From Gonapodya prolifera JEL478 (taxonomy: Eukaryota > Monoblepharomycota > Monoblepharidomycetes > Monoblepharidales > Gonapodyaceae), in NCBI GenBank assembly GCA_001574975.1, contig KQ965799.1, positions 186,001-250,000 on the forward strand: a stretch of DNA of 64,000 bases, given 5' to 3'. Below are positions 9,808 through 63,960 of this stretch, one piece after another. The position numbers were made by a program, and so were the translations under genes. Position 1 is the first letter of the stretch; each line of letters opens with the position of its first letter. Under the pieces are notes generated by a model. It made no database searches and was not told where the DNA came from. It saw nothing but the letters and a program-made list of their open reading frames with translations.

Positions 9808-11493
9808 CTACACCCACACCATCTGCTTCTCAATCTCGAGCAACTCGTCAATCTCATCCCAAATCAAACTCTGCAGTATCCGGTCGAAATTACTGGTCCC
9901 CCTCATAATCGTCCTTACTGAAAGCGGGGCAATGTACTTGTCGAAACTCCGCGACTCCCACATGTGCACCGCGAAGTTTTCGGCAAAGTCCCACGAGCCG
10001 GAGCCCGAGCCGCGGAAGAGGGTGTGCAGGCTCGCGTCATCCCACATGGGGTGGAAGAACCGTGTGTGTTTGAGGATGGTGATGTCGTCGGGGAAGGATT
10101 TGGCCATTTTGCCGGGCAGACTGGTGGGGACCAAGGATACAAGCCCGTGAAACACATGGGAAGAGGAAAGGTACAAGCACATCAAACAAATCAGGTCCAT
10201 TGAAACCGCAACAAGTCAATGACTTACACGACGCTATGGTAGTTCCAAAGTGTTCTACAAAAACACGGTGGATGTGCGATGTGTGTCAGTCAATCGGTTC
10301 TCGGCGAACAAGCCTCGTTCTCGAGTTCTCGCAGACGAAATTTATTCCGCTTCGCCTTTGCGGTGGATAGAGTATTCCACTTTGAGCACTTTGAGGGATC
10401 ATTCGCCTTCGGCGGACACCCTCGTTCAATACTCGCTCCGCAAGAGTATATTCCGCTCCGCTTATTCGCCTCCAGCGGGAGTATGCGCTTCGCGCCGTCT
10501 CATTCGCGCTTCGCGCAGATCACTCGCGTCCGGCGGACAACCTCGGTCCAATACTCTCTCTGCGCTGTCTCATTCGCGCTTCGCACAGATCACTCGCCTC
10601 CGGCGGACTCCTCGGTCAGCACTTCTTGCTTAGGCCTCGACACACGCTCTGCGTGACGGTCTCGGTCAGCGCCTTGCGGCGCCTAGGCCTCGGCGTCCTC
10701 GGTCTTGGGTGCTTCGCACTCCAGACCTCGAGGGGATGACTCACTGGTTAAAGGTCCTATACGACTCCAACCACCGCTTGACAAACGGCGATCCCTTCTT
10801 GGAAGCCATGATGGCATTTGCCAGCCCCACGCGCCCACCTTCGCCCTCCTGTGCCATGACAAAGTCATGTCTGAGCAAAGGGTCAAACGGCCTCAGCACG
10901 AGGGCGTCAATATCGAGGTAAATCCCGCCATGCTGCTCCAACGCACGCAAGCGGACAATATCCGCCTTGTGCGCAAACTTGTCCACCGGGTTGCCCCATA
11001 TTTCATTCACGGGCTCGACGGGCGCCATGTGCAAGTACCTTCGCGACCGCTCAAACCAAGGACCGGGCGGTTGGTGCACGTGGTGGAAGAAGATGGCTTC
11101 GGGGCGGATGTGCTTGTGGGCGGCCTTGATGATGAGGTAGTGCATGATGCCGAATGGTTTTGTGCCGTAGTCGGGCGAGAGGCCGAATATGAAGTGGACC
11201 AGGCGAGGGATTTGGGCTTCGGCGTCACAGGACAGGGCGTCCTGTCGGGATTGCCATCAAGGTGAAGAGACCCCGGGCAGGACGAGCGAATCCAAGCCGT
11301 TTTCGAGGGACACAGACGTCGGTGGTGAGACAAAAAGGCAGGGATGGCACTTAAGACGCATGGAAGGACGACTCACGCTGGGCTGCTCTACGTCGCAGGA
11401 CACCACGCTTGAGCATCGCTGTGACCATCGGGAATGGAGGAAAAGCAGGAAGTTGAGGAGGCAGAGTACGGCGAGAAGCGAGCGCATCTGCAT
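9808..11493 (-). CDS. GT32-type glycosyltransferase (DXD sugar-binding, Gly_transf_sug)
   Basis: This is a type II membrane glycosyltransferase, probably in the Golgi. Exons are 11377-11493, 10745-11241, 10228-10254 and 9808-10120. Exon 1 encodes MQMRSLLAVLCLLNFLLFLH, an N-terminal signal anchor. Exon 2 carries the hallmark of the DXD family: IPRLVHFIFGLSP, AHKADIVRLRALEQHGG, then IYLDIDALVLRPFD with the metal/nucleotide-sugar-binding DID. The 27-nt third exon supplies TLWNYHSVV, and exon 4 continues LPGKMAKSFPDD and FAENFAVHMWESRSF. The reading across all junctions agrees with the family. Intron 2 (10255-10744, 490 nt) is filled by the GC-rich repeat family, while the other introns are 107-135 nt. 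Donor sugar and acceptor cannot be inferred. The start is 155 bp from the divergent carrier gene. Confidence 0.87.
10290..10737 (-). repeat. GC-rich intronic repeat family, copy A (intron 2 of the GT32 gene)
   Basis: This is a tandem-modular GC-rich repeat inside a 490-nt intron. On the transcript (minus) strand it contains several units of the form GCTGACCGAG...GTCCGCCGGAGGCGAGTGA, interspersed with GCGAAGCGCGAATGAGAC-like and GAGGCCTAAGC-like modules. The repeat begins within about 10-20 nt of the 5' splice site at 10744. Long plus-strand reading frames here only translate the repeat. Confidence 0.8.
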
Positions 11494-11648
11494 TTTGGCG
11501 CGGTGCAACGTGCATCCACCAGCGTGAGCGAGTCGCGGAGTGCAGCGTGTGCAGAATGTGGCGAACTGGTGGTGGGGTGGGTTTAGCCGGGATAATAGCC
11601 GGGACTGTGACCGCAGCAGCGACAGCAGAGTGACACGACGTGGCCGCC

Positions 11649-13911
11649 ATGAGCGACTCGCCGCCCGCGCACACGCCCGCGCACGCACCCGCGCAGTCAC
11701 CTCCGCCACCGCAGACTCCGCCACAGAGAGAGCAGCGGACTCAGCCGCGAAACACAAGGAAAACGTCGTATTTCGGAGTCCACGCGCTGTCCGGCGGTGT
11801 GGGCAGCACAATCGCAGCGTCGATCACGTGTCCGCTCGAAGTCGGTGGGTGGCGAATTGCTCACCCTGGTTGGCACGGCGGGGTGGGACTCGACTTGGTT
11901 TTTCTTCACCCACCCAAACCCACACCACGCCCCTCGCTCGAAATGAAAAGTGAAAACGCGGCAGCAGGTGTGTCTAGCACGCCGTGGGCCTACATGATTG
12001 CCCCGAAACTCACGCTTTGCCCCCCTTGCGTGCCAGTCGTCGCTGTACAAGGAGTGGCGAGAAGCTCAGCGACTGCGGCTCAAGACGCCAACGCAAAAGC
12101 TGTTTTCGCCCTTTATTACGACGGGGAATGCATTGGCGTGAGTTGCTCCTGGCGAGACGGAACGAACGTGGCGCGAGCGACGGAGGAGCGAGTAGCCGAG
12201 TGATGTGGAGTCGAGCTGACCGAGGCCGTCGAGCGAAGCGAGACGTCCGCGGGAGGCGATTACCCCGCGAAGCGGGAGTGTCTCCTCATGGAGCGCATAT
12301 TCCCGCCGGAGGCGAATCATCCACCGGGAGCGGAATATACTCTCGCGAATCAAGTATTGGAGGACTCCGAGATACAGCGCGGAGCGTTATCGAAGAGTCC
12401 ACTGGGGGAATGAACGAGGCTGTATCGAATTCGGAATGATTTGTGTTGTGTGCTCAACGTTGGACCATCGTAACCTACCTTCAACTCGAACTGACCTCCT
12501 CCTCCTCCTCCTTCCACTCTTGCCATTACCACTGCCATTACCATTTACCATTTGCTATTTGCCATTTTCCATTTGGCATTTGCCGCCTGCCACCTGCCAC
12601 CATTTTTCCACCTCCAGCGAGGTCTACCACGAAGGCGGAATCCGCGCTCTCTGGCGCGGCCTTGGTCCCAACCTCGTCGGCGTCATCCCGGCCCGCTCAA
12701 TCTACTTTGGCATGTACGGCACCTCAAAGGCATGGCTGGCGGAACTCAACGGGCGCGAGGAGTCGTGGGTCCATATGGTTTCCGCGGCGGTTGCGGGGGC
12801 GACGAGTGCCACGGTGACGAGTCCGATATGGTGGGTAGCCGCCGAGCGGAGTGAGCGGAGTGAGCGAAGCGAACGGAGCGAGGTCTCCGAGGCCTAAGCG
12901 CCGCCCAGCGCTGACCGAGGCTGTTCGCCGGAGGCGAATGATAGTACGAGGTGGAATACTCTCGCAGAGTATTCTTCGAGGCCCCAGTTCCGCGAGGCGC
13001 TGACCGCGGAGTCCGCCGCAGGCGAATTACCCCGCGAACGGAATGCTCACGCCGGAGGCGAATGATCTTTTTCGGTGTGGAATTTCGGGACTTGATTTGA
13101 AGATACTGGATTGGAGTGCGTTGGGTGGGCAGAGCGGGGAGATACCTCTGTGCTGAACGTTTCGTTTTCCACGTCTACGTGCAGGCTTGTAAAAACGCGC
13201 ATGCAACTCCAGTCCGGCGGTGAACGACAATACCGCAACAGCTTCCACTGCTTCCAGAGCGTTTTGAAAAACGAGGGTGTCCGCGGCCTGTATAAGGGCA
13301 CTTCGGCGTCGTATCTGGGCATCTCCGAGTCGACCATTCAATTCGTGCTGTACGAGTGGCTGAAAAAACTGTACCGCGACCGCCGAAGGAGCGAGAAGCG
13401 ACCCCCTACAACATACTTTTCAGTTCAGGGTGAGCTTTCCCTGCATAGTGGTCTCGTGCATTTTAACCCATCTCGCTGCCCGGCCTGCAACCAATTCGTT
13501 TTTCATCCATCTCACTGCGCGCCCTACACCCACACCCACCATCAAGACTGGGTCGACTCCTTCGTCGTCGCCGCCACGGCCAAGCTGCTTGCCTCGGCCG
13601 CGACATACCCGCACGAGGTCGTGCGCACACGGCTCAGGGAGCGGCCCCCGGACGGAACGCACAGCAAGTACAACGGGCTCATACAAACCTTCCGCGTCGT
13701 GTACCGCGAAGAAGGCTTCCGAGGGCTCTACGGCGGAATGTCGACGCATCTAATACGGGTCGTTCCGAACGCGGCCATCATGTTCACAGTGTATGAGTTG
13801 TCGGTGAGTGCTTCGACGTTGAGGGTCGTCACGCGACCTGCGTAAATCTCATCCCACACACCCCCACGCCGTTACCTTCGCCAGGTGTACATGCTGGGCA
13901 GCAAGTCGTAA
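11649..13911 (+). CDS. RIM2: mitochondrial pyrimidine-nucleotide carrier (RIM2 / SLC25A33-36 type)
   Basis: This is an SLC25-family inner-membrane carrier, most like Rim2/SLC25A33/36, which exchanges pyrimidine nucleotides to supply mitochondrial nucleic-acid synthesis. Exons are 11649-11844, 11951-11967, 12037-12137, 12618-12830, 13185-13429, 13557-13803 and 13885-13911; all phases agree. The three carrier signatures are present: CPLEVVKTRQQSS (assembled across a 17-nt microexon), SPIWLVKTRMQLQ and YPHEVVRTRLRE. GLGPNLVGVIPARSIYF and GLYKGTSASYLGISESTIQ are typical of this subfamily. The N-terminus is Pro-rich. Introns 3 (480 nt) and 4 (354 nt) hold copies of the GC-rich repeat. Intron 3 also ends in an imperfect CCATTT/TGCCA short tandem repeat (about 12520-12605). 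The gene is convergent with SRPRA (157 bp). Confidence 0.92.
12150..12430 (+). repeat. GC-rich intronic repeat family, copy B (intron 3 of the carrier gene)
   Basis: The host-sense strand reads GCTGACCGAGGCCGTCGAGC, then CCGCCGGAGGCGAATCATCC and further modules such as CCCGCGAAGCGGGAG, a perfect short palindrome able to form a hairpin. The copy starts about 12-50 nt after the donor at 12138 and has the same orientation to the transcript as copies A and C-F. Confidence 0.75.
12500..12612 (+). repeat. imperfect short tandem repeat (CTCCTC then CCATTT/TGCCAT) at the 3' end of intron 3
   Basis: A run of CTC/CTT triplets followed by imperfect repeats of TTACCATT, TGCCATT and TGCCACC precedes the CACCTCCAG acceptor at 12617. 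It forms an extended pyrimidine-rich tract. It is probably a local replication-slippage product. Confidence 0.6.
12838..13072 (+). repeat. GC-rich intronic repeat family, copy C (intron 4 of the carrier gene)
   Basis: It begins about 8 nt after the donor at 12831. An initial array of GAGCGGAGT/GAGCGAAGC units leads into GAGGCCTAAGCGCCG and AGCGCTGACCGAGGCTGTTC, then GCCGGAGGCGAATGA twice. It includes ATACTCTCGCAGAGTAT, an inverted repeat. It has the same orientation to its host transcript as the other copies. Confidence 0.8.
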
Positions 13912-14068
13912 CAAAGAGCAGCAGGCTCGCCATGCCATCCATCGAAATACTGTTTCGGGCACTTTCGTTTGTTTTTTTCGCACGGGATACCCAATTCCCC
14001 TATGTATGACACATTGTAATGAACGTACTCATGCACAAGACACTACACATGAAAACAACATGCTGATA

Positions 14069-16924
14069 TTAGCGAAGGAGAGTCTGTACGATCGCCCGCA
14101 CATTGAGGCGCTTCAGATCGGTATATGTCTGGCCCGTGCCCACGAACAGGATGGGCTGGCCCGTGATGTATGTCATGGAGAGAGCCGCGCCGACCTGTGC
14201 ATTCCGGTTAGCAACGCAAAAGGACATGTGGTCAATCATGGTGCCCATCTCATCGGGACCGGCAGCAGTAAGAAATGCCCCACCTTCTCGTCAATGGTAT
14301 CGAACTTTGTCAAGATAATCCCGTCGATCTGGCGCGGGTTCTGCACGCCCGAGAAATCGCGCAGCGCGCGGTTGAATTTCGTGAGCTGGTCCACGGCCTC
14401 GTTCCCAACGAGGGCCTCGCCCACAAAGATGATCTTGTCGGGACTGTTCATGGTCACGAGCTGGTGGCAGAAATATCAAATCGGTTAGAGAACTGGAGCT
14501 GCCGAGGGTGGGGATGGTAACCACACCTTTGCGAGCGCCCGCATGAGCGGTTCGTTATCTTGCATCCGCCCCGCCGTGTCCACCAGAACCACGTCAAAGG
14601 CATTCGCAGTCGCTTCGAAAGCAAAACGATGAGTGAACGGCACACGCTTCTACACCAGGCGCACGGTCCTCACCATACGCAATGGCCTCCTTGGCAATCC
14701 CCGCCGGGTCCTTTCCGTAGCCCTTCTCGTACAACTCGACCTTGCCTCCACTCGACAGCGCGTTCAAATTCCGGGCATGCACCTTGAGCTGCTCCACGGC
14801 TCCCGACCTGAACGTGTCGCCTCCGACAATGAGCGGCTTGCACCCGTTCTGCTGCAGGAGGAACACGACCTTTGCCAGGTTGGTCGACTTCCCGACGCCA
14901 TTAACTCCACAAAACACAATCGTGTACGGCCGCCGTTCCGCCCGGGCGGCAAAGATATCGCGGAGGAGGTCCGTGGAGGTCTTTGGAGTCAAGATGCGGC
15001 GAAGAGCGACTTCGATCTGGTCGTTGACCACGGTGGCGATGCGCTGGAAGGACCCAATCTTCTGCCCCACCAGCGCCGTCGAGACGGAGTCGCACAGGTT
15101 CTGCGCAATGTCCGCCGCGACGTTCTTGGTGATCAGGTGTTCCTTCACTTTGGCCATCACGGGTTGCAGGTCCGCGTCCGTCAGCGTGCGGCCGCCCGAC
15201 GCGAGGTTCCGAAAAAAAGAAGATATTCCCGACGACGCCGTAGGAGCGGAGGCGGCGCCGCCATTGGGAGCCCCACCGTCCCCGTCGGATTCGGCCTCGT
15301 CGTCGGCGTCCGTGCCCGTGTGCGTGGACGCCAGCGGGCCCCTTCGGGCCGTGGAGGGTGCGGACGCTGTGAGTTCGGCGGCGTCGTACATGCCGTCCGC
15401 GGTTTTGCGGCCCATGGACGATTCGTCGATCTTGATATGAACGGCATTGTTTAGGTTTCAATGACAGCGTGAGAGCCGCACCAGCAGTAGTGTCCACTCA
15501 CCCACTGACTCCGCAGCACGGTGCGCTCACGCTCGTCCAGCTGGTCGACGTCCAAGTCGGACCCTTTGCTCCTGTCCAGCTCGCGCTCTTGCTCCTTGGT
15601 CAGCTTGGTGTCTTCCCAGACCCGAGGCCCGCGCTTCTTCCTGTCATTGGGCAAGTTTTCAAGTTTTATGAGTGAATGGAAGGGGACGTAGCACGGGAAC
15701 GGTAAAGCTCACTTGTCAATCTGGGGTGACGCACCGCCGCGGTTGGCAGTGCCCCCGCGACCCCCACGGGTGGCCCCACGTCCTCGTGCCGCGACAAGCC
15801 TTTTCAAGACGCTGGGTGATCCGTTGGCGGAGCCGGAGCCGTGGCGGTCCTCGGGGTCTGAGACGGATTCGGTGTCGATGTTGTTGGTGGAGCCGTTCAG
15901 AAAGGAGGAGGAGGAGTGCGCATCCCCGCCGGGCGCGAGGTATCCTTTGGAGTTGCGCGTCTGTAGGGGGAAGCACAGAAGTAAGAAAGTGGGTTCACGG
16001 CAGGTGAGTAGGGAGAAGGGAGCTTGAGTAGGGTGTGAACGCTGCGCTCCGCTACGTATCATTCGCGCTCCGCGGTTCACTCGCCTCCGGTGGACAGCCT
16101 CGGTCAGCGCTGCGCGCTTGGGCCTCGGGCTCCGCGGTTCACTCGCCTTCGGCGGACTTGTCTCGCTCCGCGAGGAACATACCACTCCGCGGATCACTCG
16201 CCTCCGGCGGACAGCCTCGCGGCGCTTAGGCCTCGGGCTCCCCCACAACACACCTCCAAGTCCTTGTGCTCCAGGCGGGCCTTTATCTTTTCAAACTTGT
16301 CATCAAACGCGGCGTGGTAGTCGTGGAGAGCGGCTTTCGCGGGTATTTTCAGGCGCACGTCGGTGTAGATGGTGGAGAAGGACTTTCTGACGGATTCGAG
16401 CAGTTCTTCAATGTAGGTCAGGTAGAGGGATTTGGCGTAGACGGCCTGTCGATTGGACATGCAGAGGACTCGTTACGTTTGCCGGCGCGGCCTTCAGTCC
16501 TCCAGTGCTCCACCAATTGACATTCAGCATCGACAAATGGGTTCAGGGGCAGCACACCAGTCTCCTGACAGAAAATCCTCCTCGGATGGACACCTCTGCC
16601 GTCCCCACATTCACCCTCCCGCCCACTGCGTCGCTACTGCTAACCCCTGCGACTCACCACAAAGAGCAGCCCCAGCTGGTTGTCCGCCTTCCACCTGAGC
16701 TCGTAGTTTCCGTTCTGCGGATGGAATATGTTTGCGCCCCCTTTATCCTCTATGAGCACGTTCTGGATGAGAGCCGTGATTGCCGCCTTGACTGCGTTCG
16801 CAGCAGCCGAGTTTCCGGGGAATGCGAATGCGGACGACGCGAGTGCTGGTGCGACGTAAAGTGTGAACGGCCACGCCCACAGCACGAATCCACCGCGCGT
16901 GATGATTGCGAATGCCTCGAGCAT
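14069..16924 (-). CDS. SRP101: signal recognition particle receptor subunit alpha (SRPRA/SRP101)
   Basis: This is the SRP-receptor GTPase that docks SRP-bound ribosomes at the ER membrane. ATG 16924 gives [18 protein letters not shown], the SRX (longin) start; the upstream open frame is not needed. Exon 1 is 16658-16924 and exon 2 is 16254-16445; together they complete the longin domain, which binds SR-beta. Exon 3 (15713-15960) is a charged, Gly/Ser-rich linker. Later exons hold the NG domain: P-loop [51 protein letters not shown] and the final GTGQTYTDL. About 8 exons end at the stop at 14069. The 293-nt intron 15961-16253 carries repeat copy D; the others are short. All G motifs look intact. 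Confidence 0.95.
16030..16252 (-). repeat. GC-rich intronic repeat family, copy D (intron 2 of SRPRA)
   Basis: On the transcript strand three modules occur: GCGAGGCTGTCCGCCGGAGG, GTCCGCCGAAGGCGAGTGA and GCGCTGACCGAGGCTGTCC followed by ACCGGAGGCGAGTGA. They are separated by CCGCGGAGC/CGCGGAGCG blocks and GAGGCCYAAGCGC. It starts about 15 nt from the donor at 16253. Confidence 0.8.
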
Positions 16925-17897
16925 CGTGTTGGCAGTACGAGTGACCGCAGGACTGACCGCGGGTGGTTCGTTTGTGCCGCAAATGTGGTGCGCATTGGCC
17001 ATGTCTACCCATCTGCACTCAAAAACTTATTCGAAGTGGAGAATTTTCGGATTCGTACATCGATCACACCGGTTGTACGAGCTGCAGCCCCCACAATCAA
17101 GGCTTCCCCGCTTTCTTGGGGTGGGAAAGTCGAGGCGAATGTCAAAGTATCATGTCAACCAACGATTCCAACTAAATTCATTTCAACCAGAACTTTTCTG
17201 GGCATCGACCATAGTACAACAATGGATGTAAGCCTGGAAACGTGAGCCCCCCTTACTTGACCTTGTCGTGCGGGTGATGCAGACACCTTTGTGAGACAAA
17301 CAACTTCAAGTAAGGAACCAAGTAAGTTTGTTAACGTGGTACAGAGTCCAGTATACTTGTATATTCTTGCACACAGTAACGTGCAAGCAGCTCAATTTTG
17401 ATGTACAGTGAATTGCTTGAAATCTTGTATCCCCTTCATCCTTTGCCCTACAAATTTGCCATCTCATTCACGTCTGAACATGAATGACAGTATCAGCTCG
17501 CACGGGCAAGCTCAAGGGCACAGTTCCAACTATGCTATTCGAAGGTCGGTCGTGCTGGACTGACACAAGAAAGTATACAGTCAGCGGCCCAAGAAATATA
17601 TTGGAAATGTATTGATCCAAGCAATCTGAAACTCTGCCGTCCGGCGGTCAGTCTTTTATATTGGTTTGGCCGTCAGGGACGACGTGGCGAGGCAAGTACA
17701 AACAGGTCATTCTTAAAGCACGACGAGCTCCTCGCTGTCGAATTCTCCGTGCTTTTTTTCTCACCCGCATCACAAAACGGTGAGTGACACACATCGTCTC
17801 CCTTCGTCATCCTGTTCCTCCTGAGGCTCACACCTGCCCTCCCTTTTTGGGAGCAACTGTGATCAGTCACCATCATCCAACATCCCACCCTTCGAAA
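16925..17897. other. intergenic region between SRPRA and the next plus-strand gene
   Basis: About 970 bases hold the divergent upstream regions of SRPRA and of the gene at 17898. Short open frames here lack family motifs and do not continue by convincing splicing. No RNA gene, repeat or mobile element was seen. Confidence 0.5.
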
Positions 17898-18559
17898 ATG
17901 TCTCGCACCATGCTCTTTGTCTTCTACGGCCCCAGCGCCGTGACGGACCAGGCCATCCTCGACAAGATCGCCACCGCCATCGACACCAAACAACGCTTCC
18001 AGGTCACACCGGACAACTTTGGCGGGGACACTGCCGTCGGAATCACCAAGGCCGCTGTCGTGTACTATAGCCTGAGAGTCCGAAACAGTCCTCTGAGGTG
18101 CCGCACCGCCGTGGACTTTGAGTATTTGGAGTTCGCCACGGACATTACCACTGTAGCGTACGGCGAGACCCTCGTTACCGACCCCAGCGTGTACGAGAAC
18201 ATGATCCAAGCATTCAGGAAGGGAGAGTCGTTCCAAGTCACCAACACTTCGATGGCAGGCTCAAGTCAGCCAGAGTCACCGACTTCCGTGCCGGGGGTGC
18301 TTCCGTGGAAGAAACCTGTACGGAGGGGGGTTCTTTCACCTGGAACTCCACCATGCCGGCGCCGCCAAACCCTCTCGCCGTGACCGGCCCCTGCGAGGTG
18401 CAGATTCCCGCCAACTTCGAAGCTCAGTTCGTGGCTGCGGTGCGGTCTACTGTGCATCAAGAACTCGCCATTTCCGTCGAGGACGGTGTGAAAACGTTTA
18501 CGGGCAAAGGGGAAGCGGAACAAATGCGACTCAATGACGGCACAGAAGACGACACGTAA
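17898..18559 (+). CDS. unrecognised protein with an internal duplication; coding continuity doubtful
   Basis: I do not recognise this family. From ATG 17898 the product begins MSRTMLFVFYGPSAVTD. Two stretches resemble each other: FYGPSAVTDQAILDKIATAI...FQVTPDNFGG near the start and AYGETLVTDPSVYENMIQAF...FQVT about 85 residues later. This suggests a duplicated module of about 85-90 residues. A C-terminal part with Cys-containing TCTEGGSFTWNS and CEVQIPANFEAQFV is in a different frame, and no ordinary intron joins the parts, so the gene may be decayed or misassembled. There is no signal peptide or TM helix. The 5' side is C/T-rich, as at other starts in this window. Confidence 0.4.
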
Positions 18560-18594
18560 TCGTCGGGGCCAGGCCCCCGGATCACACGTGAGCC

Positions 18595-19313
18595 ATGAAG
18601 CTCAGATTTGGCAGCAATGCGCAAGGATGGACTAGCGGAACAATGCAGCTGCCGGTCATCGCCAGGGACAGATCTACCGTCACTATGATCGATCAGGGGA
18701 ATGGTGGTACAGGCGATTCTGATGATATCGTGGCCTTGACAATATTCTGCACCAATGTCGGTAAACTCGAAGTGGCACCAGAACCAATTATAAACAACGA
18801 TGGTGAGCAATGGCGCAAGAGATCTCTTTCAGTTCATCTCTTGACGTAAGCTTCTTCACATAACAGGGGACAGAATGGCAAGATCAGACGCCAAAGTTTA
18901 CATTAACGCCCCCGCGATGGATGGGAAAGGAGACGAATTCTATTTCCATGTCAATGTCACAAATATCCGCAAGGTGGGTACTGGGTTCTTCGCCTTCAGT
19001 TATCACACGCATCTGATTGATTAGCCTGTAATCATTCCAAAAGGGATTTGACCAACTCCCATGCAGGCTTACTTGCACCAGCTGGGAGTCGAAGAAATGC
19101 AAGGCGTTAGACCTGCACCATCTCAATCCCATCTTCAACTACGTCCGCATCGTTGGCTGCTTTGCTGACAACGTCAATCCGCAACTCGAAGGCGCCAGGC
19201 TGACCTTGTCGGGGTACTTCCGTTACATATTCTCGTCTCTGGAGAAGTGTCACAGCACGAGTGGGAGGCGGAGTTTTCGGGAACGAGTTACAATATTACG
19301 AGAGTGACGTACT
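18595..19313 (+). CDS. unrecognised reading frame(s), possibly a decayed gene
   Basis: An open frame from ATG 18595 (MKLRFGSNAQGWTSG) runs to a plausible GTGAGC donor near 18803. It could continue after CATAACAG (about 18867) with GDRMARSDAKVYINAPAMDG and FYFHVNVTNIRK. A further open frame follows downstream with FNYVRIVGCFADN. The final part changes frame without a clear intron, so the 3' end is uncertain. The composition suggests a soluble beta-rich protein, but no family is recognised. It lies only 36 bp behind the preceding frame and may once have been part of the same locus. Confidence 0.3.
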
Positions 19314-53302: not shown

Positions 53303-53352
53303 ATTTAGTTCATGATGTTTTTGCATACAGCCACGTAGACGTGGTCCAATTA

Positions 53353-55797
53353 TTACGATCTCAATTCATTCAATGCTTCCTTGATCGAGCGCTTCAGCTC
53401 CCGGTAGGACACAATCAAAAAAGTACGCTCATCTCTACTCATAAGGCCTATTTTTTCATCGACTCCTGCATCTAACTGTTGTTGTGGGGAGAAAGTCAGG
53501 TCGACGAGACTTCCCAACTTGCTTCGTCACATAAATACCTTATTCAACGTGGCAATGACGTGGGCGACATCCAGTGAAGGACGGCCGTTCTCATCCTCCT
53601 GATGAAATAGGTAATCCCTAAACAATTTCAACAGGTAACGATCTCCCGTCTCCGACCATCGTGGATCGAGCGAGAACCTAATAAAACGTTCATGGTACAT
53701 AAACCCGAGCACACTTCGAACTGCGCGCTTACTCCGGTCGCTCATTTATAAAGCCAAGTTGAAAGAGCAGCCGCGTGATTCGGCCGTTTTCGAGCTCCTT
53801 GGAGAGTTCTGTCTCGAGGAAGTCATTGTAGTGATGTGCGCTGTTGATCTCATGCAGAATGCGGGGACCCATCATCGTAATAACATCATCGACATTCTTC
53901 ATTGGGCTCGGTTTGCTGAGGAGGTAGAGCGTGACGTTCTTCAAGTCGGTGGAAAAGTTGCGCGAAAGGAAGTCGATTGATTTGGGCAGGTTCTGCGCCG
54001 CGGTCAAGGAAAGACACGCCAGGCATGCAATCAGTTGCCCGAACCGTATCAAGTCTTCTTGCTGGTGCCCGAGAGAGTATGATGAGATTCTTGCGGAAAG
54101 CGTTCTTCAAGACACGTAACAATCCAAGTACCTGTTGTTGCGGGAGCGCCTTGCCAACGTCAAACATCAACATATCCAACAACCCACAACAGTTGAGCCT
54201 GAATCTGAAGAGAGCGGCCACATCAGAAAACTTTTGTTTGACAGAGGGTCCAGCTTGCCCTTACCGGTTTTTGCCGGTCACGAGGATTTTGCTGGCCTCC
54301 AGGCTCCGAACCGACAACCCGGCAGAATGAATCGTTTTCAGCGCACTCGCAACCTGGCAGATGAAGCTCCAGATGGTCTTTTCTAGCGCTGGGCCCGTTG
54401 GGGGAGTGGCACCGGGAGCGAAGTAGTGGTCGGCCAGTGTTGTGGCAAGGGGGTGGTAATCGTAGACGAAGGCTAGAGCTGCATCGGAGGTATTGATCTG
54501 TTAGAAAGTTGGACATCTACATGGAACAGAAGGAATAGAAAAGCCTACAGTAATCTCCGAATGCCTTTGTCGTGAACGCTTCTCGCACCGAAACGATATT
54601 TACATGGCGAAGGCGTCTCCAGGGGTCAATGGTGGACATTGCCATTTCGTTCATCAGCCTAAAACCTTTCCATAAGGTAAGAGATGCTATCGAGGAGTGA
54701 AAGAGACGAGTGGGGAAAGATTACCTTCTACCCGCCGCAGTACGTAAGGTTTGCCGTCAACGGAGCCCGTCACGCGATAGACGCTGGTCATGTAACCGAA
54801 AGATCCGGGAATCATCTTGGGCTGCTCCAGCGGGTAAACGGAATGGTAGTTGTACAGTTCCAAGGGGAGGCTCTGGGCGATTCTTGCTGAAACAGGGCTT
54901 GGTCCGGTCACTTTTCCACACCACCCGAGCGCGCACGCAACTCCACCCCATCGAGCGAGAGGAAACTAACCACTCTCATCCAAAGAATGGTGCACCGCTT
55001 CATTCCGCTTTTGCAGTTCTTCACGCAGGCGGTCCGACATGAAGAAGGATTGGATCATTCGTTGGTGCGGGTGCAGGTTGCTCACGTGAGGCAGCGGGGG
55101 AGAGTACAGGTGGTACTGCAGCTGGGGAGCGTATGTGCAGTGTTATCGAGTTAGCGTCACATCTGGAGTCCGAGCAAAGTGCCGAAACACGGCCCACGCC
55201 GAACTGTCAACTGCTAACCGGTTGAGCAGGAGTGTAGGTCACTCCGTGGGCGTTTTGTGGGTAAAAGCCGCCCTCGGGAAGAAATCGGTTCTGGTTCTGT
55301 GCCTGTGTCTCGGCATATGGATTCACCGTGCCGACGCCGAGTCGCGCTGTTTGAGGAGCTGTTGGTGCGGGTGGGCCTGTGTCGAAGGAATGCACCTGGT
55401 GGGACAGGGGAGACGTGGGCGGCGGGAACCCTCCAAATCCATCCGCCTGGCGATTGCGTTTGTCACGCGAAAACGGGCGGCGCGGGTACGGTGGCGTCGC
55501 CGTGCGAGGCTCGTGGTTGACATGGCCGTCTGCGGTGGGTACTCCCAACCCCACGCCCATTCCCGAGGGCACAAACTCGGGGAAGTCGCTGAGCGCGGGA
55601 GGAATCGACCCATCCAGGGCTGTCTCGGCCCTCTTGGTGGGCGGCGGCAAGGGGGACACGCTTTCCGGGTTAGCGGTGGCGAAAGTAAATTCTGGTGCAT
55701 CTGCGCTGAGACTGTGCGATCGTGGGATGGAAAACTGCGGTCTTGGACTCGTGGGAATGAATTCGGGCGCGGCGGGGTTGTGTTGGTGCGATCCCAT
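53353..55797 (-). CDS. PAN3: PAN3, regulatory pseudokinase subunit of the PAN2-PAN3 deadenylase
   Basis: Pan3 dimers recruit the Pan2 nuclease to poly(A)-bound PABP for the first phase of mRNA deadenylation in the cytoplasm. ATG 55797 opens a disordered N-terminus with two PAM2-like PABP-binding motifs, [12 protein letters not shown] (about residues 7-18) and FPEFVPSG. The pseudokinase domain runs from [12 protein letters not shown] and [20 protein letters not shown] through [25 protein letters not shown] and [20 protein letters not shown]. The C-terminal knob includes [44 protein letters not shown] and [17 protein letters not shown]. The stop is at 53353, 50 bp from the convergent RBM26/27 stop. 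The CCCH finger found at the N-terminus of many fungal PAN3 proteins was not seen, unless an unnoticed upstream exon encodes it. Confidence 0.92.
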
Positions 55798-57141
55798 CGC
55801 GAAGATGCGGTGAATGTGGAGGGCGGTGTTTGAACTTTTTGTTACTAGTCAATATTTGAATTGATTGTCCCTTCATAACCTTTCCAATCACACCCTATGC
55901 CAACCAGACCTTGCCCTGCCCAATCCCTCTTTTCTCTCTCATTTTATCTTTCGCCTCCTTCAGATCTTCTAGTTCGCCCTTTTCTTCTTGTGTCTCCCAC
56001 CAACCCACATGTAACCCACCTGCCAACTCTTTATCGGGCCCTCTGTAGGCCAACAAGCAGCTATTATAACAGCACATAAGCTCGCTCAAAGTTGAGATTC
56101 AGAAAGATGTGGACGTTGTTTTGCGATATTCTGGACAGGTCCCTCTGTTGTATTGGACTTTCCGTCAAACATTGTGAATGTAAAATCCTATGATCTCTTT
56201 TATTGTACCTCGTGCCACCATTGATAAGCGAGTTTCCTTTAACGCCAGAATCAGCAATAAACTCTCCTGGTTGTTCGGTTCTTGAGAATGGGTGAACATG
56301 GGAGAGGACACCGAGACACGCGGGGAGTGCTGCGTCAAAGTGTACAGCCGGTCTGTGTGCACTTCTCATCTCGGGTCTCATCTAATGCGGAATTGCGTGT
56401 CTTCGGACCATGGCGCGCGTGGGCGATGTGACGAGTCGCCTTTTGTGCGGGCGACACTTCAGCGGAATCCTGACCACAGCCTCCTGCGACCACACCTCCT
56501 TCAACGAACAGAGGGAGGAGTTCGATCGTGCAAATGGAAATCGCCGCGTCCATTGATACTCGCTGCTCTCTCCCCACCTGTCCTTTCAAATCCGCTCACT
56601 GCATTCCGTTCTCCGTTGCGCATCAGCATATCTGGCGTGCTCTGGCAGTCAGTTGTCAACCGTCAGCCGTCACTGAGAACCGTCTGAACATGCACTTGCA
56701 CTTGCACTTGACTCGATTGGCCGTCGACGCGACAGGTGCGGTCAAGTCGGCGTTCACTATGCTGCACTCTGCAGGTGAGACGTCAAACGTCACACGCGCT
56801 TTCATTCGCTCCCACATTTGGGGGATAGGGTGTGAGTGAACAGATCTTAGACTTGTTTTGTGGTTGAATGGGTTAGTTGGGCCGACCTTCCAAAGTGACG
56901 ACATCCCGGCATGAACCACGAAATAAAATCACATCCGGCGACGACTGTAATTACATAATTGATGTATATCTTCAGAACATGCACCGCCGAAAGGGGGAAA
57001 AACGAGCACGTCCGCGACCACGGGCGACTGAGGCGCCGAGGCCTCCAAGCGTCTCCATGCATTGATCTACGGCCAACACACGCGTTCCTGCTTGCCATCC
57101 GCGCTCCGCCATCGAAATCACTTAACCTCGAAACCGCCACG
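55798..57141. other. intergenic region upstream of the Cys-rich membrane protein gene
   Basis: About 1.3 kb holds no recognisable gene. A C/T-rich tract lies at about 55910-56040 and a triplicated TGCACT unit near 56690-56708. Short frames on both strands look random. Confidence 0.5.
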
Positions 57142-57632
57142 ATGACCGACAATGGCCCTCACGGCCTGAAGGGTGCAGATCCAGCCGCCATCTATGATCA
57201 TGCTCCCCCCAACCCACACCCACACTCCCCCCGCCACCACCGCCACCGCACCATTCTCATCCTCATTGGCGTTGGCGGCGCGTCCATCCTGCTTGTCCTC
57301 GCTCTCATCCCCGGCCTCGTCCTCGGTCTCCGCGCCCGTTCAAATAGCACCATCCCCCCTCCCCCCTCCCCATCGCTTCCCATAGAACCATAGAAATCTT
57401 TGTTCACCAACCCTGTCCGCCCAGTTCGGGCGGCTGCCCCGCCCCACTGACATGCAAGACGTACCATGACTTTTCCGGGCGCGCTGATTCGCTGTGCGAA
57501 TACGCGTGCAATAGGACAGAGGATTGTCCTGCGGGGTCGGGGTTGAGGTGTCTGTTTGCAAATGATGGGCCGTGGGGGGCGTGTTATGCTTGTCAGCGGC
57601 TGTGGGCTCCATTCGAGGCCAAGGTGCAATAG
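57142..57632 (+). CDS. small membrane-anchored protein with a Cys-rich domain
   Basis: I do not recognise the family. ATG 57142 opens a Pro/His-rich cytoplasmic stretch (NPHPHSPRHHRHRT), then a strongly hydrophobic helix (ILILIGVGGASILLVLALIP). Exon 1 ends at 57337; a 56-nt intron (GTTCAA donor, ACCATAG acceptor) leads in phase to exon 2 at 57394. Exon 2 encodes a Cys-rich module with about ten cysteines: QPCPPSSGGCPAPLTC, SLCEYACNRTEDC, LRCLFANDG and GACYACQ. The arrangement predicts a type II membrane protein displaying a disulfide-bonded domain. Homopolymeric C runs sit inside the intron. The stop is followed at once by repeat copy E. Confidence 0.55.
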
Positions 57633-57792
57633 CACAGACCGAGGCTGTGGAACAGTGTGAGAGGTCTGCCAGAGGCAAATTACTTTTTGCGAAGGGTCTA
57701 GTGCGCAGAGCGTGCAGCGCATAATTCCCGTTCGCGCTCACCGAGGACTCGGCCCGAGGGGAATGAATCGCTAAGCGGAAGACGCCCCCACT
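57633..57792 (+). repeat. GC-rich repeat family, copy E (just behind a stop codon)
   Basis: A diverged copy starts directly after the stop of the Cys-rich gene: ACAGACCGAGGCTGTGGAAC, then TCTGCCAGAGGCAAATTAC, with GCGCAGAGCG and CACCGAGGACTCGGCCCGAG blocks after it. It has the same orientation to the upstream transcript as the intronic copies. It may lie in the 3' UTR or in an untranslated intron. Confidence 0.55.
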
Positions 57793-58170
57793 GACCAGAT
57801 CGGATTTGAACGCTCAGTATCATTAATTTCTGTTCATATGTTCTGTACATGTATGTCGAGAAAGAAGAGAAAGTTTTGCACTTGTTTTCTGTATCAATTT
57901 ATCATGAGCAGCCGCAGGTGGGTGAAACGTCCACAGAGCGAGGACTGGGACTTTCGCCAAGCATTCCTCAAAGCATGGCAAAGGAAACAAACATGTGAGT
58001 CATGCCTCTCTTGGAAAGTGATGGAGGAAGCTACACGTCGACCGTTGCCCAAACCCACCCAAGCCCGCCAAAAAAGAACCAAGCCCTCGGAGCACACCAC
58101 ATTCCGTTTTTGCCGTCTCCGGGGTCCCTGCACACCAACAAAATACCGCTTAGGAAACTCATCACCCCCT

Positions 58171-58580
58171 GCCACGGAGATTTGCATAGTTGTGGATGAA
58201 TCTTTGTGGCATTGGGCTGTTCCTGAGCTTGATCAAATATCCGATAATTTGTCGAGGCGGGGGGACCCCTCAATTAGTTTGCCACGGAGTTCACTCGGTG
58301 TACCCCCTCGATCTCTGTGGTGAACTGATTTGAGGAGCTGCCTTGGACTGGATTCAGGCACCCCTGATTTAGTTCGGCGCGGAGATTTGGGGGTCAGCCG
58401 ACTCATCTCCGTGCCAAACTAATTAGGGGTCCTTGTGCAGCGACAAGCACCTCTGCCACGAAGATTTGAGTAGTTTTGAATGATTCTCCGTGGCATCGGG
58501 CCTTTCCCGACCTTGGCCAAATATCCAACAATTTTTCGAGGCGGGGACCTCCAAAATGTTTCTCGTTGAGAGTTCATTTC
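58171..58580. repeat. direct and inverted repeats at the left side of the recombinase fossil
   Basis: A ~120-bp block GCCACGGAGATTTG...CAAATATCCGATAATTTGTC (58171-58295) recurs at 58455-58575. The motif ACCCCTCAATTAGTTTGCCACGGAG (shortened here) at about 58263 occurs again at about 58359 and inverted at 58407-58432. These may be terminal or subterminal repeats of the neighbouring element. Confidence 0.55.
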
Positions 58581-58584
58581 ATGT

Positions 58585-59693
58585 TTGACAAACTTTGTTG
58601 TTTTCCAGAAGCCTCTATTTGCTTTTCAAATGCGAACAATCAAGAATGGCCAGCAGGATGTTTACAATACACTGTTTGCCAAGCACGGCGCAACCAAAAC
58701 ACAAGCAATGCTCGTCAAATACGCAAATCTTGTCGGAGTTGTGCGGGAAGCGCTGGTCAGCGCCGGGACGCTTGAGCCTTTGACAGAAGACTTTACAAAT
58801 CACATGTGAATTGTAAATACCATTCACGTTTCATGGCTCGTCACAAGCATGTACTACAATCCAGAAACTCAAACAACCGTGTTTGCGGCAATGACTGTTT
58901 TTGTTCAAGCACTCCCGGAAGCTATTGCTGGCCAGGAGGTTGTTGACGTTTACAAAAATAACATGTCTACGCGAATACAAAAAAGCATCACAAGATACAA
59001 TACCCAGCTTGCAAACTCAAGAGAGGAGACAATGTGGATGTCTTGGTGTGACGTTAGCAAATGTGTGGAAAGATATATTGTTCAAAACAAGATTGAGACT
59101 CTTGCCACTAAAGCCCCCTTTCATTTGCTGAAGAGTGAGCGCTTCAAGATGCTCTTGTGCTCTTGGTGTACACAAAGCTCCCCCCTGTGCGCGCCAAGGG
59201 TGCCTTGTAAAGAGGTGTGATTTTGATACAGAGCAAGACAACTACATCGATACCCAAAACATAACGTGGTGTTCAACAAGTACAAAACAAGCAAAATATA
59301 CGGCAAAAATGCTGTCCAACTCGACAAGAGCAAGCTCTTGTGGAAACTTTTGCGCCGCGTTTCCACAATGTGTTGCGATCCGAGTTGACACGCTATATTG
59401 TGCAAATTTCTCTTTTACACTCGCCTTGGAGAAGCCCTACGTAAACAAAGATGCCTTTGAACAGCACGTTATGGACATTCTGCACCGCGTTACAGGTAAG
59501 CGTCTCGGGGTCAATAGGCTCCGCAAAATATTCATTACCCACTTTTTGTCAAAGGCCCCACGCAAAGCAGAATGTGATCTTGTTGCAAAAATGCGGGGTC
59601 ATAGCGTTTCAACCCAAAGCACGTACAGAAGGTACTTTTCTTCGTTTGTATCGGGCCTTGTTGAAGACATGGTCTTGTGAGCGCCATTCATAA
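58585..59693 (+). mobile_element. fossil tyrosine-recombinase element (Crypton-like or Polinton-like-virus type integrase)
   Basis: The segment preserves parts of a tyrosine recombinase: N-terminal helical frames, a central part with the YKTSK-IYG style of YR integrases, and a C-terminal part with NRLRKIFITHFLS, a GHS motif and TYRRYFSS as the likely Tyr region. It is broken, with at least two interruptions of the reading frame. The composition is more AT-rich than the neighbouring host genes. Cryptons (DNA transposons) and Polinton-like viruses both carry such enzymes, and I see no capsid or polymerase gene here to decide between them. Divergence of the frames suggests an old insertion. Confidence 0.5.
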
Positions 59694-60960
59694 GAAAAGG
59701 AAAAGCAGGCAAGATTCAAGATTTTTTATTTGATCCAGAGGGTATGAAACATGACTCAGCAAAGATATTCTTCCAAAAAGAGGGTTGCCCGCACCGACAG
59801 AAACGTATCAAAGTTCATGATCAACAAACCTGCCACGACCCCCCTCTCTGTGGGAGTGGCACTGTTACCATGATTGGTGCCATTGCCCTGGGACGGTACA
59901 TTCGACATCATACTGGACCGGAAAGACGGGCAGCTCGCGCTTGCCTGGGCAATAAGTAATAGTGTGCCATTGTTGACTGATGTTGTAATCATCCAAGTAC
60001 AAGCATAGCCTCTCTACCTACAGACAATTTGTCTGGTAAAGCGCATAGGGAAGCGATATTTTGGGGCAAAGAGGCGTGTGAAAAGGTTTTACATGGCAGC
60101 TTCCAAAATCCACCAAGCTCTGAAACCGTTTGAGGGCAAAGAGGAAATGAGCACCGTGCGTCCGAAGCATGTGTGTTGGGGGTGTCATGGCGAGCTCTCC
60201 ATTTTTTTCATCTCTCGGTAGCTCTCAAGTCCGAGAATCATAAATTTTCATAAATTTTCAGGAGGGCTAACTGTGATGGCACGTATTTCTTGCGACGCAA
60301 TAGTTTACATTCCTCGGTGAGCACAGGGCCAATATCCCCATACCAGACTCAATGATCGTCATTTCCTCGTCGGCTCCGTCTCAATGTGGCACAGAAAGAA
60401 TGGTACAGAAAGAAAACACACCAAACTAGCAAAGAGCTCGCCACGCGCCTCGCCAAGTGGCTGCACCTGCCCGCGAGTTTCGGTCATCGCAAAGGATTGC
60501 ACAGGTCTAGATTAACTTGTGGCATCTCTCTGGGTTCAATTCGCTCCATGAGTGTCCGGCATCTCTCTCACCAAAAGAATCTGATCGCTACATCATCTGC
60601 TGACCCTGCAGCCACAAACTCGGGATAATGATTTTTGAGGGTTGAAGTGGGTCCAGTCCAGTCCAGGCCTAGCGGTCTTGAGTGATCTAATCCCAATCGC
60701 TTTTGTGTCGAAAAGGTATCGGAAATGCCAGTGGACGACAGGTGGCTCGAGTTCGAGCCCCTCGGAAGCACACGAAGACCGATAAGAAAGGGGGCAAAAT
60801 GGGGCAAAGGCTCCAGTCGGCGGGGAGGCTGGTTCCGAAGTGCGAGACAAGCTGGTTAGGAGTCGTCCAGTTGTGAGATGGTTGTGGCAATGATGGAGGG
60901 CACTCGACGGGAGGGGACGAAACGCGTTGACGTTCTGTTCGACGCCACGTCCATGCCCCA
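59694..60960. other. gene-poor stretch right of the recombinase fossil
   Basis: A minus-strand open frame at 59756-59992 matches nothing I know and may belong to the same old element. ATAAATTTTC is directly repeated near 60239-60260. No complete gene was found. Confidence 0.45.
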
Positions 60961-60967
60961 GTTTGTA

Positions 60968-61262
60968 CTGAGGTCCGCCGACACTCTCTGTTCAAAGGCA
61001 CTGCGATACTCCAGTTTACATCGAAGAGGTGCGCCAGCACTCTCACTTCGAAGCACCAATTGCTCGCTCCCGTTTGCAGCGAGGAGGTCCTCCCACACTT
61101 TTTGCTCGAATCCAGTTTACACCGAGGAGGTCCAACAATTCTTTTCTCTGGTCGAAGCCACTGCATGCGCCGGTTGGAACCATGGAGGTCCGCCTACACT
61201 CTCTGTTCGAAGACAATTCCTCGTCCCGTTTGCTCCGAGGAGTCCCACCAACACTCTTCTGT
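60968..61262. repeat. degenerate tandem repeat, about six copies of 43-59 bp
   Basis: AGGTCCGCC-like anchors occur at 60971, 61026, 61085, 61128, 61186 and 61238. Each is usually followed by ACACTCTCTGTTCGAA-like sequence and preceded by CCAGTTTACACCGAGG or similar. Open frames on both strands here translate the repeat and are not taken as genes. Confidence 0.7.
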
Positions 61263-62350
61263 CGTCTGTTCCCTTGCAACTTGCCACCCTGTTTCTCACC
61301 CTGTAATCGATTGCCCGAGAGTAAGGGGAAGCTGACACTCACCGGAACGACGCAATGTGATGTGTCACAATCTGGTGACACAAAGGACGATCGTTCTGCG
61401 CAGGAGCAGGCGTTTGTTTTCTGCCGGGGAGGGCGGTATATCGTGATGGCGGCGCTCAAACCCAGATGTAAGCAAATTGCGCGTTGAAGCACATCCACCA
61501 TTGGATCGCCCCGTGCCACTTCACCATCCCCTTGATTGAGGGCCCAAAGTCCCTGTTAGTACTTGTGGACAAAGACGGATGGTTCTTCGCAGTTCCCGGA
61601 GAAGGAATCGTAGAGTAAAGTTAAGACGAAAGCACGCATGCGGATAGATATATGCTTAGAAACGCTCGCTGATACGTGGGTAGAGCGTGTTGTCGAGGTC
61701 AAGGAACACAATTGGGTCCATACAGGATGGGGATTCGTGGGCTGCGTTCTGATGGAGATCAGCGAGATGTCTTGAAAACGAACATGGCTAATACGCTCGA
61801 CGCAGAGAGGCGCAGTAGGAAAGAAAGCCGACTCAGTTGTCGTCCGATTGGTATTCTTTCGCACATGCACGGCTCAACAAACATAGCGACCTGCCGTGCA
61901 CTCTCGCGCCTGCAATATCCGCCGCCGTCTCTGCACGCTGCGGTCAGTCTGCTGCGCATGTCCAAAGTAGCGCGTCTCTTCCGTCTCTTCCGCGACTGGG
62001 TGCTCGTGTGCCCTCTGCGGCCAGTCACGCTTCTCCCTGCGAGTGGAAGCCGCTGGCGTCCATTGATGCTCGCTGCTCTCTCCCGCGTGTCCACTCCACA
62101 AACACGATTCACAGGTCCACGCCCAAAGCACAACGTAATGCTGCACACCTGCTGTGCCAATCGACTTTCGACCCCACTCGGTGACAATCAGGTCGAGGGC
62201 TCAACGTGTTTTCGCGCGACGCGTTTTTTTTTTGCACAACTCAGGTTCATTACAACCCCGCAATGATTACCTGGACCCTGAAGGTTTCCGTGGCATCGCC
62301 AAGATCTCTCGCTCCATCGAGTTTCCATTCACGCACGCCACCGAGATTGC
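61263..62350. other. intergenic region upstream of the EXORDIUM-like gene
   Basis: Several open frames on both strands (for example 61676-62266 plus, 61759-62187 minus) overlap one another and lack family motifs. No gene is called. The last 150 bp must contain the promoter of the gene at 62351. Confidence 0.45.
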
Positions 62351-63960
62351 ATGTCTCGTGTTTCTTTCGTGCCCTTCGTGGTTGCCTTGGTGGCGGCGGT
62401 CCTCCTCCTCAATCTCACTGGACCTGGCAACGCTGCTGCTTCTTCTTCAAACGCCCTGATACACACAAAGAACAACATCACTTTCACGCCCGGCAGGAGA
62501 TCCCTCACAAAGCCCCTCACAATCTATATAAGTGAGTGTCCGAGAACGCACGCCCGGTGACCGTTGTATCGAGACGCGAGCGCAACACAGATCAAAGCGC
62601 GAGGCTCAAGCGCGATAGCGCTGACCGAGGCTGTCCGCCGATGGAGAATGACCCGCGGAGCGTATTCCCGAGAAAGAAGTATGATTGCCCGCCGGACGAC
62701 GGCACGACGCGGCCACTACGAAGGCGAACAGTATCGAGCATGGATGCATCGCTGAGTCAACTTCGCAACTCCACTCCACGTTATAGTCTGGTATGGCGCG
62801 TGGCCCGACCCCGACAAGGCCATTATCACAGACTACATCGGCGGTCTTTCCACAAGCGATTTTTGGAAAATAAATACCATGTGAGTCTCTCCTCTCTTCT
62901 CTGGATGTCTGCCATCCATTCTCAATATCAATTGCCATCGGCATCATTCTCTCGCTGACGTCAACGTCAACCGCCATCGTCATTCTTCGCTTGCTGACGT
63001 CAACCGCCATCGGTGTCATTATCTCACCGTCACCAACCGCCGTCGTCGTCGACCTGTGCCGTGTTAACCCCGTCAACGTGTGAACAGGTACTACTCGGCC
63101 GACGACACGAACCGCAAGCACATCTCGTCGTCCGTATCCCTCGGACCTTCCATCGTCGACAACTATTCCCTCGGCAAAGTCATCGATGGTTATAACAACT
63201 ACGACATCTCCAGACTCGGTAGGTGCCACTTTCATGTCCCTTCACCCTTTTCCATCGCTGCAAATGAGAAACGTATGCTTGATGACTTGCGCCGCTCAAT
63301 GACTTTTCCCCTTCAGTCTACACGTACATCTCGCAAGGAAAACTTCCCGCCGACCTCGACGGCGGCGTGTACCTGGTCCTTCTGGACAAGCACACCATCG
63401 AGGGCGAATACTGCAATTTCGGGTACTGCGGGTGTGAGTCTCCCCTTCCCTTTCGACCGTCACGTGTCCAAGGTGGCAGGTGGCAGGCGGCGCAACATGC
63501 TAAATCGCTATTTATTTCGTAACGCCGTAAAGTTCACACATCGGTCCAGTCAGACTTCATGGACGCGCGAAACAACAACCGCACCGTCAAGGGAATCGAC
63601 CCCAACTTCCCAGGTCTGTTCCTGTGACCCACCCATTCCCACTTTCCTCTTGTCATCACTCACCTGGCTCGCACTCCCCAACTCGCGTACACAGACTACG
63701 CCTATGCCTGGATCGGTCACCCCAAATCGTGCGGGTACATAAATGGCATGGCCTCGTGTGCGTGGCACAACATCCTCACCTCGCCCAACGGGAACCCGCC
63801 CGTGGACGCTATGTTGCCCCACATTGCACATGAAATCGCGGAGTCGGCGACGAATCCGGTATGTGGTGGTCGGAGGGTTGTCTTATTTATTGGGGCGAGA
63901 CTCGAAGCGTGCCGTGATCAACCTACTAGGACATATTTTTCCCGGGGTGGATGACGAGCG
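62351..63960 (+). CDS. EXORDIUM / phosphate-induced protein 1 (PHI-1) family secreted protein, 3' end outside window
   Basis: ATG 62351 gives a signal peptide (MSRVSFVPFVVALVAAVLLL). Exons 62351-62531, 62787-62880, 63088-63218 and 63317-about 63434 join in phase, then 63537 onwards. EXO-family motifs are in order: TIYIIWYGAWPDPDKAIITD, DFWKINTMYYSADD, GGVYLVLLDKHT, CNFGYCGFHTS, YAYAWIGHPKSCGYI and PHIAHEIAESATNP. The last aligns with the HELAE..TNP block of EXO/PHI-1 proteins, whose HExxE-like site looks like HEIAE here. In plants these are apoplastic growth-related proteins; their biochemical role is unknown. The gene runs to a GTATGT donor at 63859-63864, and the final exon(s) lie beyond or at the window edge. 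Intron 1 (62532-62786) carries repeat copy F. Confidence 0.82.
62560..62725 (+). repeat. GC-rich intronic repeat family, copy F (intron 1 of the EXORDIUM-like gene)
   Basis: It reads GCGCGAGGCTCAAGCGCGA, AGCGCTGACCGAGGCTGTCC, then GCCGATGGAGAATGACC and CGCGGAGCG on the sense strand. It begins about 30 nt after the donor at 62532. Orientation to the transcript matches all other copies. Confidence 0.75.

Follow-up and report, generated by a model that had tools for sequence, protein, structure and literature searches.

The window analyzed here is a 64,000-nt stretch of the Gonapodya prolifera JEL478 assembly (contig KQ965799.1, positions 186,001 to 250,000; C69:186001-250000 in our numbering of the 207 contigs, 47.56 Mb in total), and it contains six copies of a non-coding repeat built of short modules. 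An initial annotation had described the copies and their shared modules, and all six were present where it had placed them, one of them (57633-57792) being very degenerate. A 20-nt module (20-mer) was recovered with 0–1 mismatch in three copies (at 12910, 16089, and 62620) and with 4 mismatches in two others (10411/10532 and 12215). In the degenerate copy, no 20-mer match was obtained at up to 4 mismatches, and the repeat segmenter, which was trained on 30 loci, did not find it. Introns were called with a strand-symmetric gene finder trained on random tiles and the window, with repeats barred from the exon state; every repeat segment was then assigned to one of three classes (sense intron, antisense intron, intergenic), and the score loss under the alternatives was recorded.

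Copy 1 (10343..10729, minus strand; segmenter score 130.2) consists of several tandem modules in sense to its host, a DXD glycosyltransferase gene, and lies in an intron at 10255..10744 with the donor GTGAGTCATCC at 10744 and the acceptor at 10255, both read by eye. The gene finder alone preferred the opposite strand for this intron by 0.6 units; Pfam Gly_transf_sug matched the minus-strand exon, and the donor with the head of the repeat was recovered in the genome-wide search (C69:196719-196744:-). The mitochondrial carrier gene on the plus strand (Pfam Mito_carr) contains two element introns. The first, 12138..12621, begins with the donor GTGAGTTGCTCC (gene finder loss of 17.5 if forbidden; an alternative acceptor may be the CAG at ~12618) and harbors copy 2 in sense at 12154..12423 (score 71.2). 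The second, 12831..13184 (GTGGGTAGCC ... GTGCAG; loss of 13.6), harbors copy 3, also in sense, at 12844..13068 (score 72.2), and the Mito_carr match (46-133) spans its junction. On the minus strand, the gene of the signal recognition particle (SRP) receptor alpha has an intron at 15961..16253 (GTGTGTTGTG ... CTACAG; loss of 57.1 if forbidden) with copy 4 in sense at 16040..16241 (score 90.5), and the match of Pfam SRP-alpha_N (49-302) spans the junction. Copy 6 (62610..62672, plus strand), found by the segmenter and by an exact 20-mer match at 62620, lies within a Phi_1/EXORDIUM-like gene, in an intron at 62532..62786 (GTGAGTGTCCG ... TATAG, by eye). The gene finder favored a minus-strand model for this intron by 12.8 units; Pfam Phi_1 matched the exon after it with 26.8 bits, the cut-off being 25.

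The host strand was thus Pfam-supported for five of the six copies, in line with the uniform sense orientation that had been proposed, and these five copies do lie in four unrelated hosts. The reported length of the element introns, 255–490 nt, also agreed with our calls, the median of ordinary short introns being 68 nt (n = 144, tiles and window; this set contains a few miscalled fragments of the window element introns). The remaining copy had been placed directly after a stop codon. The gene finder likewise called this very degenerate copy 5 (57633..57792, plus strand, sense to the upstream gene; modules recognized by eye) intergenic, but it may also be read by eye as lying in an intron at 57624..57817, with AAG before the donor GTGCAATAG, CTGAC inside, and CGCTCAG before TATCATTAA. 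Such an intron, running from the donor at 57624 to the CTCAG at 57817, would give K-Y-H-stop in phase.

The repeat family is genuine and extends genome-wide, beyond the window. With up to 3 mismatches allowed, the 20-mer matched 168 + 167 = 335 sites, and its backward-read control matched 1 + 2. For a second module, the 23-mer GAGGCCTAAGCGCCGCTAGGCGC, 156 + 144 = 300 matches were obtained against 1 + 0 for the reversed pattern, and the exact 11-mer GAGGCCTAAGC occurred 422 times against 18 for its reversed control. Thirty seed loci of 3 kb each were cut around exact 20-mer matches, namely the first 30 by contig order among the 335 matches; as the seeds are exact matches only, diverged copies are under-represented. 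The sample was completed by 20 random tiles of 10 kb, drawn from 21 contigs of known length (195,689 non-N bases), two small extensions, and the window. When the tiles and the window were read backwards, the segmenter returned 2 hits scoring 16–18, compared with 34.8–130 for real copies.

Almost all sampled copies lay in introns and in sense. The gene finder table had 52 rows: 38 sense intron, five antisense intron (L008, L024 twice, window 10343, and window 62610), and nine intergenic (edge segments of L006, L015, L020, L021, L022, and L024, plus L019, window 57633, and L046). Three rows were dropped, L003 1152-1193 as a bare G-run and the edges of L020 and L021 because they repeat each other's main copy, which left 49. 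Reassignment to sense was made by Pfam for window 10343, window 62610, L019, L022 edge/L051, L024 (twice), and L046, by a donor match for the L006 edge, and by eye for L015 edge/L052, the L024 edge, and window 57633. In this curated set, 48 of the 49 copies were in sense within introns and one was antisense within an intron (binomial p 1.8e-13), the weakest intron placements among the 48 being L009 and window 57633. The strand was Pfam-backed for 36 copies (35 sense, 1 antisense); for the other 13 (the L006 edge, two copies of L014, the L015 edge, L016, L021, the L024 edge, L025, L028, L030, L032, L035, and window 57633), it was assigned by the gene finder, a donor match, or eye only.

The proteins submitted to Pfam were chosen as recognizable-looking, and matches were obtained for all 30 host proteins and for two of three further peptides; the acyl-CoA dehydrogenase fragment of L046 was below the curated cut-off. 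Hosts in which the match spanned the element intron included ribosome recycling factor (L001), EXOSC1/CSL4 (L006), MAGE (L008), MFS (L010), WH1 (L011, junction by eye), gamma-glutamyltranspeptidase (L015, L017), adaptin (L020), a protein of glycosyl transferase family 3 type (L027), aldo/keto reductase (L051), and the window mitochondrial carrier and SRP receptor. Introns account for only 46–49% of non-coding bases (tiles minus L040 and L044; element loci), so the confinement to introns is far from chance: the probability of 49/49 intronic copies is ~1e-16, or ~2e-15 (by hand) without the two weak copies. Residence in introns was nearly exclusive in the sample, with a strong sense bias, and the random strand or frequent intergenic location that would have spoken against the proposal did not appear among the sampled copies.

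The genome-wide pattern searches were consistent with the sample. A GTGAGT donor was present within 60 nt upstream of GAGGCCTAAGC in 84 cases in sense versus 9 in antisense, with a chance expectation of ~6 (hand-calculated as 422 x 60 / 4096). Those 9 antisense hits correspond to 8 modules, three of which (on C13, C36, and C53) were also among the sense matches. For the head module GAGGTCTGGAG, the same search gave 49 in sense versus 0 in antisense, and the reversed-pattern controls for the four donor counts were 0, 1, 3, and 1. Such a donor accompanied 9 of 29 exact 11-mers in the 30 seed loci, compared with 84 of 422 genome-wide; thus, the whole genome is compatible with the sample, although a minority of copies elsewhere could be non-intronic.

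The copies sit close behind the 5′ splice site. In 36 measured element introns, which still include the L003 bare G-run and the apparently wrong acceptors of L011 and L032, the median length was 322 nt, and the repeat started at a median of 18.5 nt past the donor and ended 63.5 nt before the acceptor. The distance from donor to head, obtained for 49 matches, was not uniformly distributed (Kolmogorov–Smirnov p 1e-7), and its median was 12 nt. Subtraction of the element left a median of 86 nt, compared with 68 nt for the 144 short introns and 75 nt for 87 introns of the same loci. G-runs of at least 5 nt within intron nt 7–45 were found in 17/36 element introns versus 6/144 others, and in 14/31 versus 5/87 within the same loci.

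Taken as a whole, these observations favor, with a probability of about one half, a reading in which non-coding modular repeats spread among spliceosomal introns, oriented with the host transcript and placed a short way past the 5′ splice site, and would be removed with the intron by splicing. The initial annotation had left a choice between an introner-like element and one that spreads into introns; the strand-biased intron residence was borne out, whereas the creation of introns found no support in flanks, junctions, or phases. The 3′ flanks were nearly unshared (2 matches of 12–15 nt among 31 flanks), and the intron phases, 15/11/9, were similar to the 33/31/22 of ordinary introns in the same loci. 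Target-site duplications (TSD), which had been suggested as a check at the intron edges, were looked for and not seen: no direct repeats of at least 7 nt were present at 28 splice junctions. Repeats of at least 6 nt at the element edges, which are themselves fuzzy, occurred in 3/30 cases versus 10% of mismatched pairs. A simple transposon with TSD was rejected on these grounds, as were terminal inverted repeats (TIR) formed by the G-rich head and the C-rich tail, since head and tail of one intron folded together no better than mismatched pairs (p 0.91, n = 26). The lack of TSD, the unshared 3′ intron end, the ordinary phases, and the residual length fit insertion better, and the repeat thus appears to enter existing introns instead of making them.

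The strongest alternative, somewhat unlikely in our estimate, is that the copies are introner-like elements (ILEs), that is, that insertion into coding sequence created each intron, with splice sites brought along or recruited, and that old copies have since diverged at their ends. Such elements, as known from Micromonas, Dothideomycetes, and the 175 genomes of Gozashti et al. (2022), likewise form dispersed similar introns in unrelated genes, and here the modules were common to introns of 30 Pfam-typed, non-homologous hosts of many families (L015 and L017 belong to the same one), in sense only and with the head close to the donor. Several results weigh against insertion into existing introns or in favor of this explanation. 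Compared with ordinary introns of their own loci, element introns had a more G-rich head (p 1e-10; the window used for the head overlaps the repeat) and a more C-rich tail (p 8e-4), so that the repeat unit could include the intron ends. The residual intron was shorter than 45 nt in 4 of 36 cases, with the acceptors of L011 and L032 being doubtful. Finally, the sole antisense copy of the 49, at 1396-1623 of L008 (C8:603760-606779), lies in a MAGE-domain gene, where the called intron is almost wholly element (residual ~5 nt) and both the pyrimidine tract and the CAG acceptor are provided by the reverse complement of the G-run.

According to the portion of PMC9860276 available to us, some introner families have neither TSD nor TIR, as here, and gene-enriched families tend to prefer GC-rich motifs; the host loci of our element were high in GC at third codon positions (GC3 of 0.61–0.79, mean 0.71, for L001–L030, with no value for L019), above most tile genes. 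The same portion names Pezizomycotina as the only fungal group with introners, and states that similarity of intron ends was required in order to exclude most insertions within existing introns. In the present family, by contrast, the common part seems to be an inner modular array, not an intron with its ends. The measurements on this point are mixed: the 5′ edge of similarity lies a median of 12 nt from the donor and the L008 intron is nearly all element, but the 3′ edge lies a median of 63.5 nt from the acceptor, with an unshared flank. ILEs are also described as hundreds of near-identical copies (PMC4457414, in part), whereas the copies here have diverged; the best pairs were 80–100% identical over 60–180 nt, and those compared included no long near-identical ones (the top pairs being 124 nt at 90% and 60 nt at 100%). 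In behavior, the family comes closest to introners, with membership unproven.

Returning to spread into existing introns, the bias could also have arisen after random insertion, if only sense intronic copies survive because antisense copies harm splicing. An insert between the donor and the branch site should be least harmful, which would fit the observed position. However, although the amount of intergenic DNA is similar to that of intron DNA, not one of the 49 copies was clearly intergenic, and this is hard to reconcile with selection alone. Crude scoring of cryptic splice sites pointed the same way: antisense acceptors were no better than sense ones (mean best score −0.19 versus 0.61), nor were antisense donors (−0.22 versus −0.10), so that antisense cryptic acceptors are unsupported as the cause of the strand bias. 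We consider this explanation improbable. Since the copies are confined to introns and sense-oriented, the insertion step itself seems to be tied to transcription or splicing, and not merely to later selection.

The internal structure of the repeats may offer a clue to this step. They are tandem modules of ~50–90 nt built of mini-hairpins, whose loops on the sense strand belong to the C(GNA)G and C(GNNA)G class, with a median unit spacing of 86 and a second group near 51; L052 contained an exact 62-nt tandem (100%) beside a run of N, and L029 one of 86 nt at 81%. Head types, as judged by eye, were few, for example TGCGAGGTCTGGAGTGCGAAGCACGGAAGACCGAGC, which reads GGTCT-GGA-GTGC-GAA-GCAC-GGA-AGACC. 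Among perfect stems of at least 4 pairs in 48 segments, 85 GNA triloops were counted against 2 of the mirror type TNC, with 3.8 and 1.4 in shuffles, and a C-G pair closed all GGA and GAA loops. Introns free of the element were without such a bias (11 GNA versus 9 TNC). The best conserved hairpin, H1, lies between GAGGCCTAA and TGACCGAGG; its loop alternates between GNA and GNNA, and its C-G closing pair is mostly kept. In 61 matches, of which 3 of odd length were set aside, 13 of 16 triloops were GNA and 36 of 42 tetraloops were GNNA, comprising 26 GNYA and 10 GNRA. The sense strand folded more stably than the antisense strand in 38/43 copies with DNA parameters and in 30/43 with RNA parameters.

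Known intronic splicing enhancers include sequences similar to the G-runs close to the donor, and these runs, together with the sense orientation, the hairpins, and the stabler sense RNA, would suit intron RNA structures maintained by selection on the pre-mRNA as splicing aids or regulators, but this is very unlikely, as the folding of whole copies did not exceed that of dinucleotide shuffles, H1 stem mismatches (G.T 17 versus A.C 13, summed by hand) did not clearly point to selection for RNA pairing, GNYA loops outnumbered GNRA, the 64-kb window had no match to Rfam families, and copies were rare in random tiles. The mean z-scores against the shuffles were 0.14/−0.18 (RNA, sense/antisense) and 0.21/0.17 (DNA), by which global stability of either RNA or DNA was rejected as an explanation. 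A structured RNA family was accordingly not indicated: there was no fold beyond composition and no clear GU tolerance, and just the loop class of the local mini-hairpins was conserved.

RNA tetraloops would favor GNRA or UNCG. The excess of GNYA over GNRA loops and the lack of a clear preference for G.T over A.C suggest that the hairpin code is a DNA-level signature and that the folded form is more likely single-stranded DNA than RNA. Extraordinary stability and resistance to nucleases are described for DNA mini-hairpins in which a GNA or GNNA loop sits on two or more G-C pairs (PMC4686876, in part), and the repeat modules, judged from their sequence, appear to be of this kind (GNA/GNNA loops, closed by C-G, at least two G-C pairs). 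The near-zero folding scores speak against this view as well, and sense RNA and the coding DNA strand are identical in letters, so that strand alone cannot tell them apart.

If repeats do spread into existing introns, the route that seems most likely is that hairpin-folded DNA is captured on the coding (non-template) strand of transcribed intron starts, which would be exposed, for example, in R-loops near G-runs, and that tandem duplication of modules follows the capture. In the boldest reading, the family would represent a new class of mobile sequence that multiplies as folded single-stranded DNA through R-loop- or splicing-coupled capture; this reading is speculative, and we regard it as unlikely. 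If true, it would account in one step for the intron-only, sense-only, donor-near residence and the DNA-type loops, and introns would thereby have a way to lengthen that is neither transposition nor the introner mechanism.

The source of new intron sequence is an old open question, and an intron-confined, sense-oriented, donor-near family argues for a mechanism of spread that reads transcription or splicing; with hundreds of copies, such a link is testable, and the mini-hairpin code of the coding strand is an unexpected clue to the intermediate. Mobile repeats in introns are usually either present in both orientations or depleted in sense, and they also fill intergenic DNA. Double-hairpin elements and repetitive hairpin-forming elements of fungal and sponge mitochondria are, as here, gene-free hairpin modules that multiply, but they are organellar and not confined to spliceosomal introns. 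Intronic minisatellites share the tandem units of 50–90 nt and the local expansion, whereas the present units are dispersed over hundreds of places with a fixed strand. The short palindromic repeats of the Volvox organelle and nuclear genomes are small hairpins with loops of 3–5 nt that invade introns and spacers; unlike our family, they are found in either orientation and also populate the intergenic DNA of organelles, and their loops are of the TTTA type (PMC2670323, in part). Among the matches listed in the open-licence literature, at the level of titles and abstract starts, no earlier description of an intron-confined, sense-only hairpin repeat was found.

The distribution of the copies along the genome was uneven. 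The segmenter found only 3 copies in the 20 tiles (196 kb) and 5 in the window, while 10 additional copies in 81 kb (hand count) around the 30 seeds indicated clustering in these regions of high GC3. In general, proximity did not go with greater similarity between copies (18 near versus 1110 far pairs, p 0.82); therefore, clustering seems to reflect the region, and local hopping was rejected, with the one clear exception of L020/L021 (C26:11944-16520). In that pair, the copies lie 1.6 kb apart and are 90% identical over 124 nt, and they belong to divergent genes, each being in sense to its own gene, as if one had turned over when moving. Runs of N (4269 in L044, C8:356972-366971, and a shorter one within the L052 tandem array) imply that some arrays may be collapsed or unassembled.

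A COX1 search of the assembly gave no match, hence there was no mitochondrial DNA to compare for an organelle origin. The tile L040 (C1:500953-510952) was unlike the other tiles, with 45% GC and zero genes predicted over 10 kb. In the window, an AT-richer open frame at 59477-59682 on the plus strand, with no Pfam match at 0.001, resembles by eye the end of a tyrosine recombinase.

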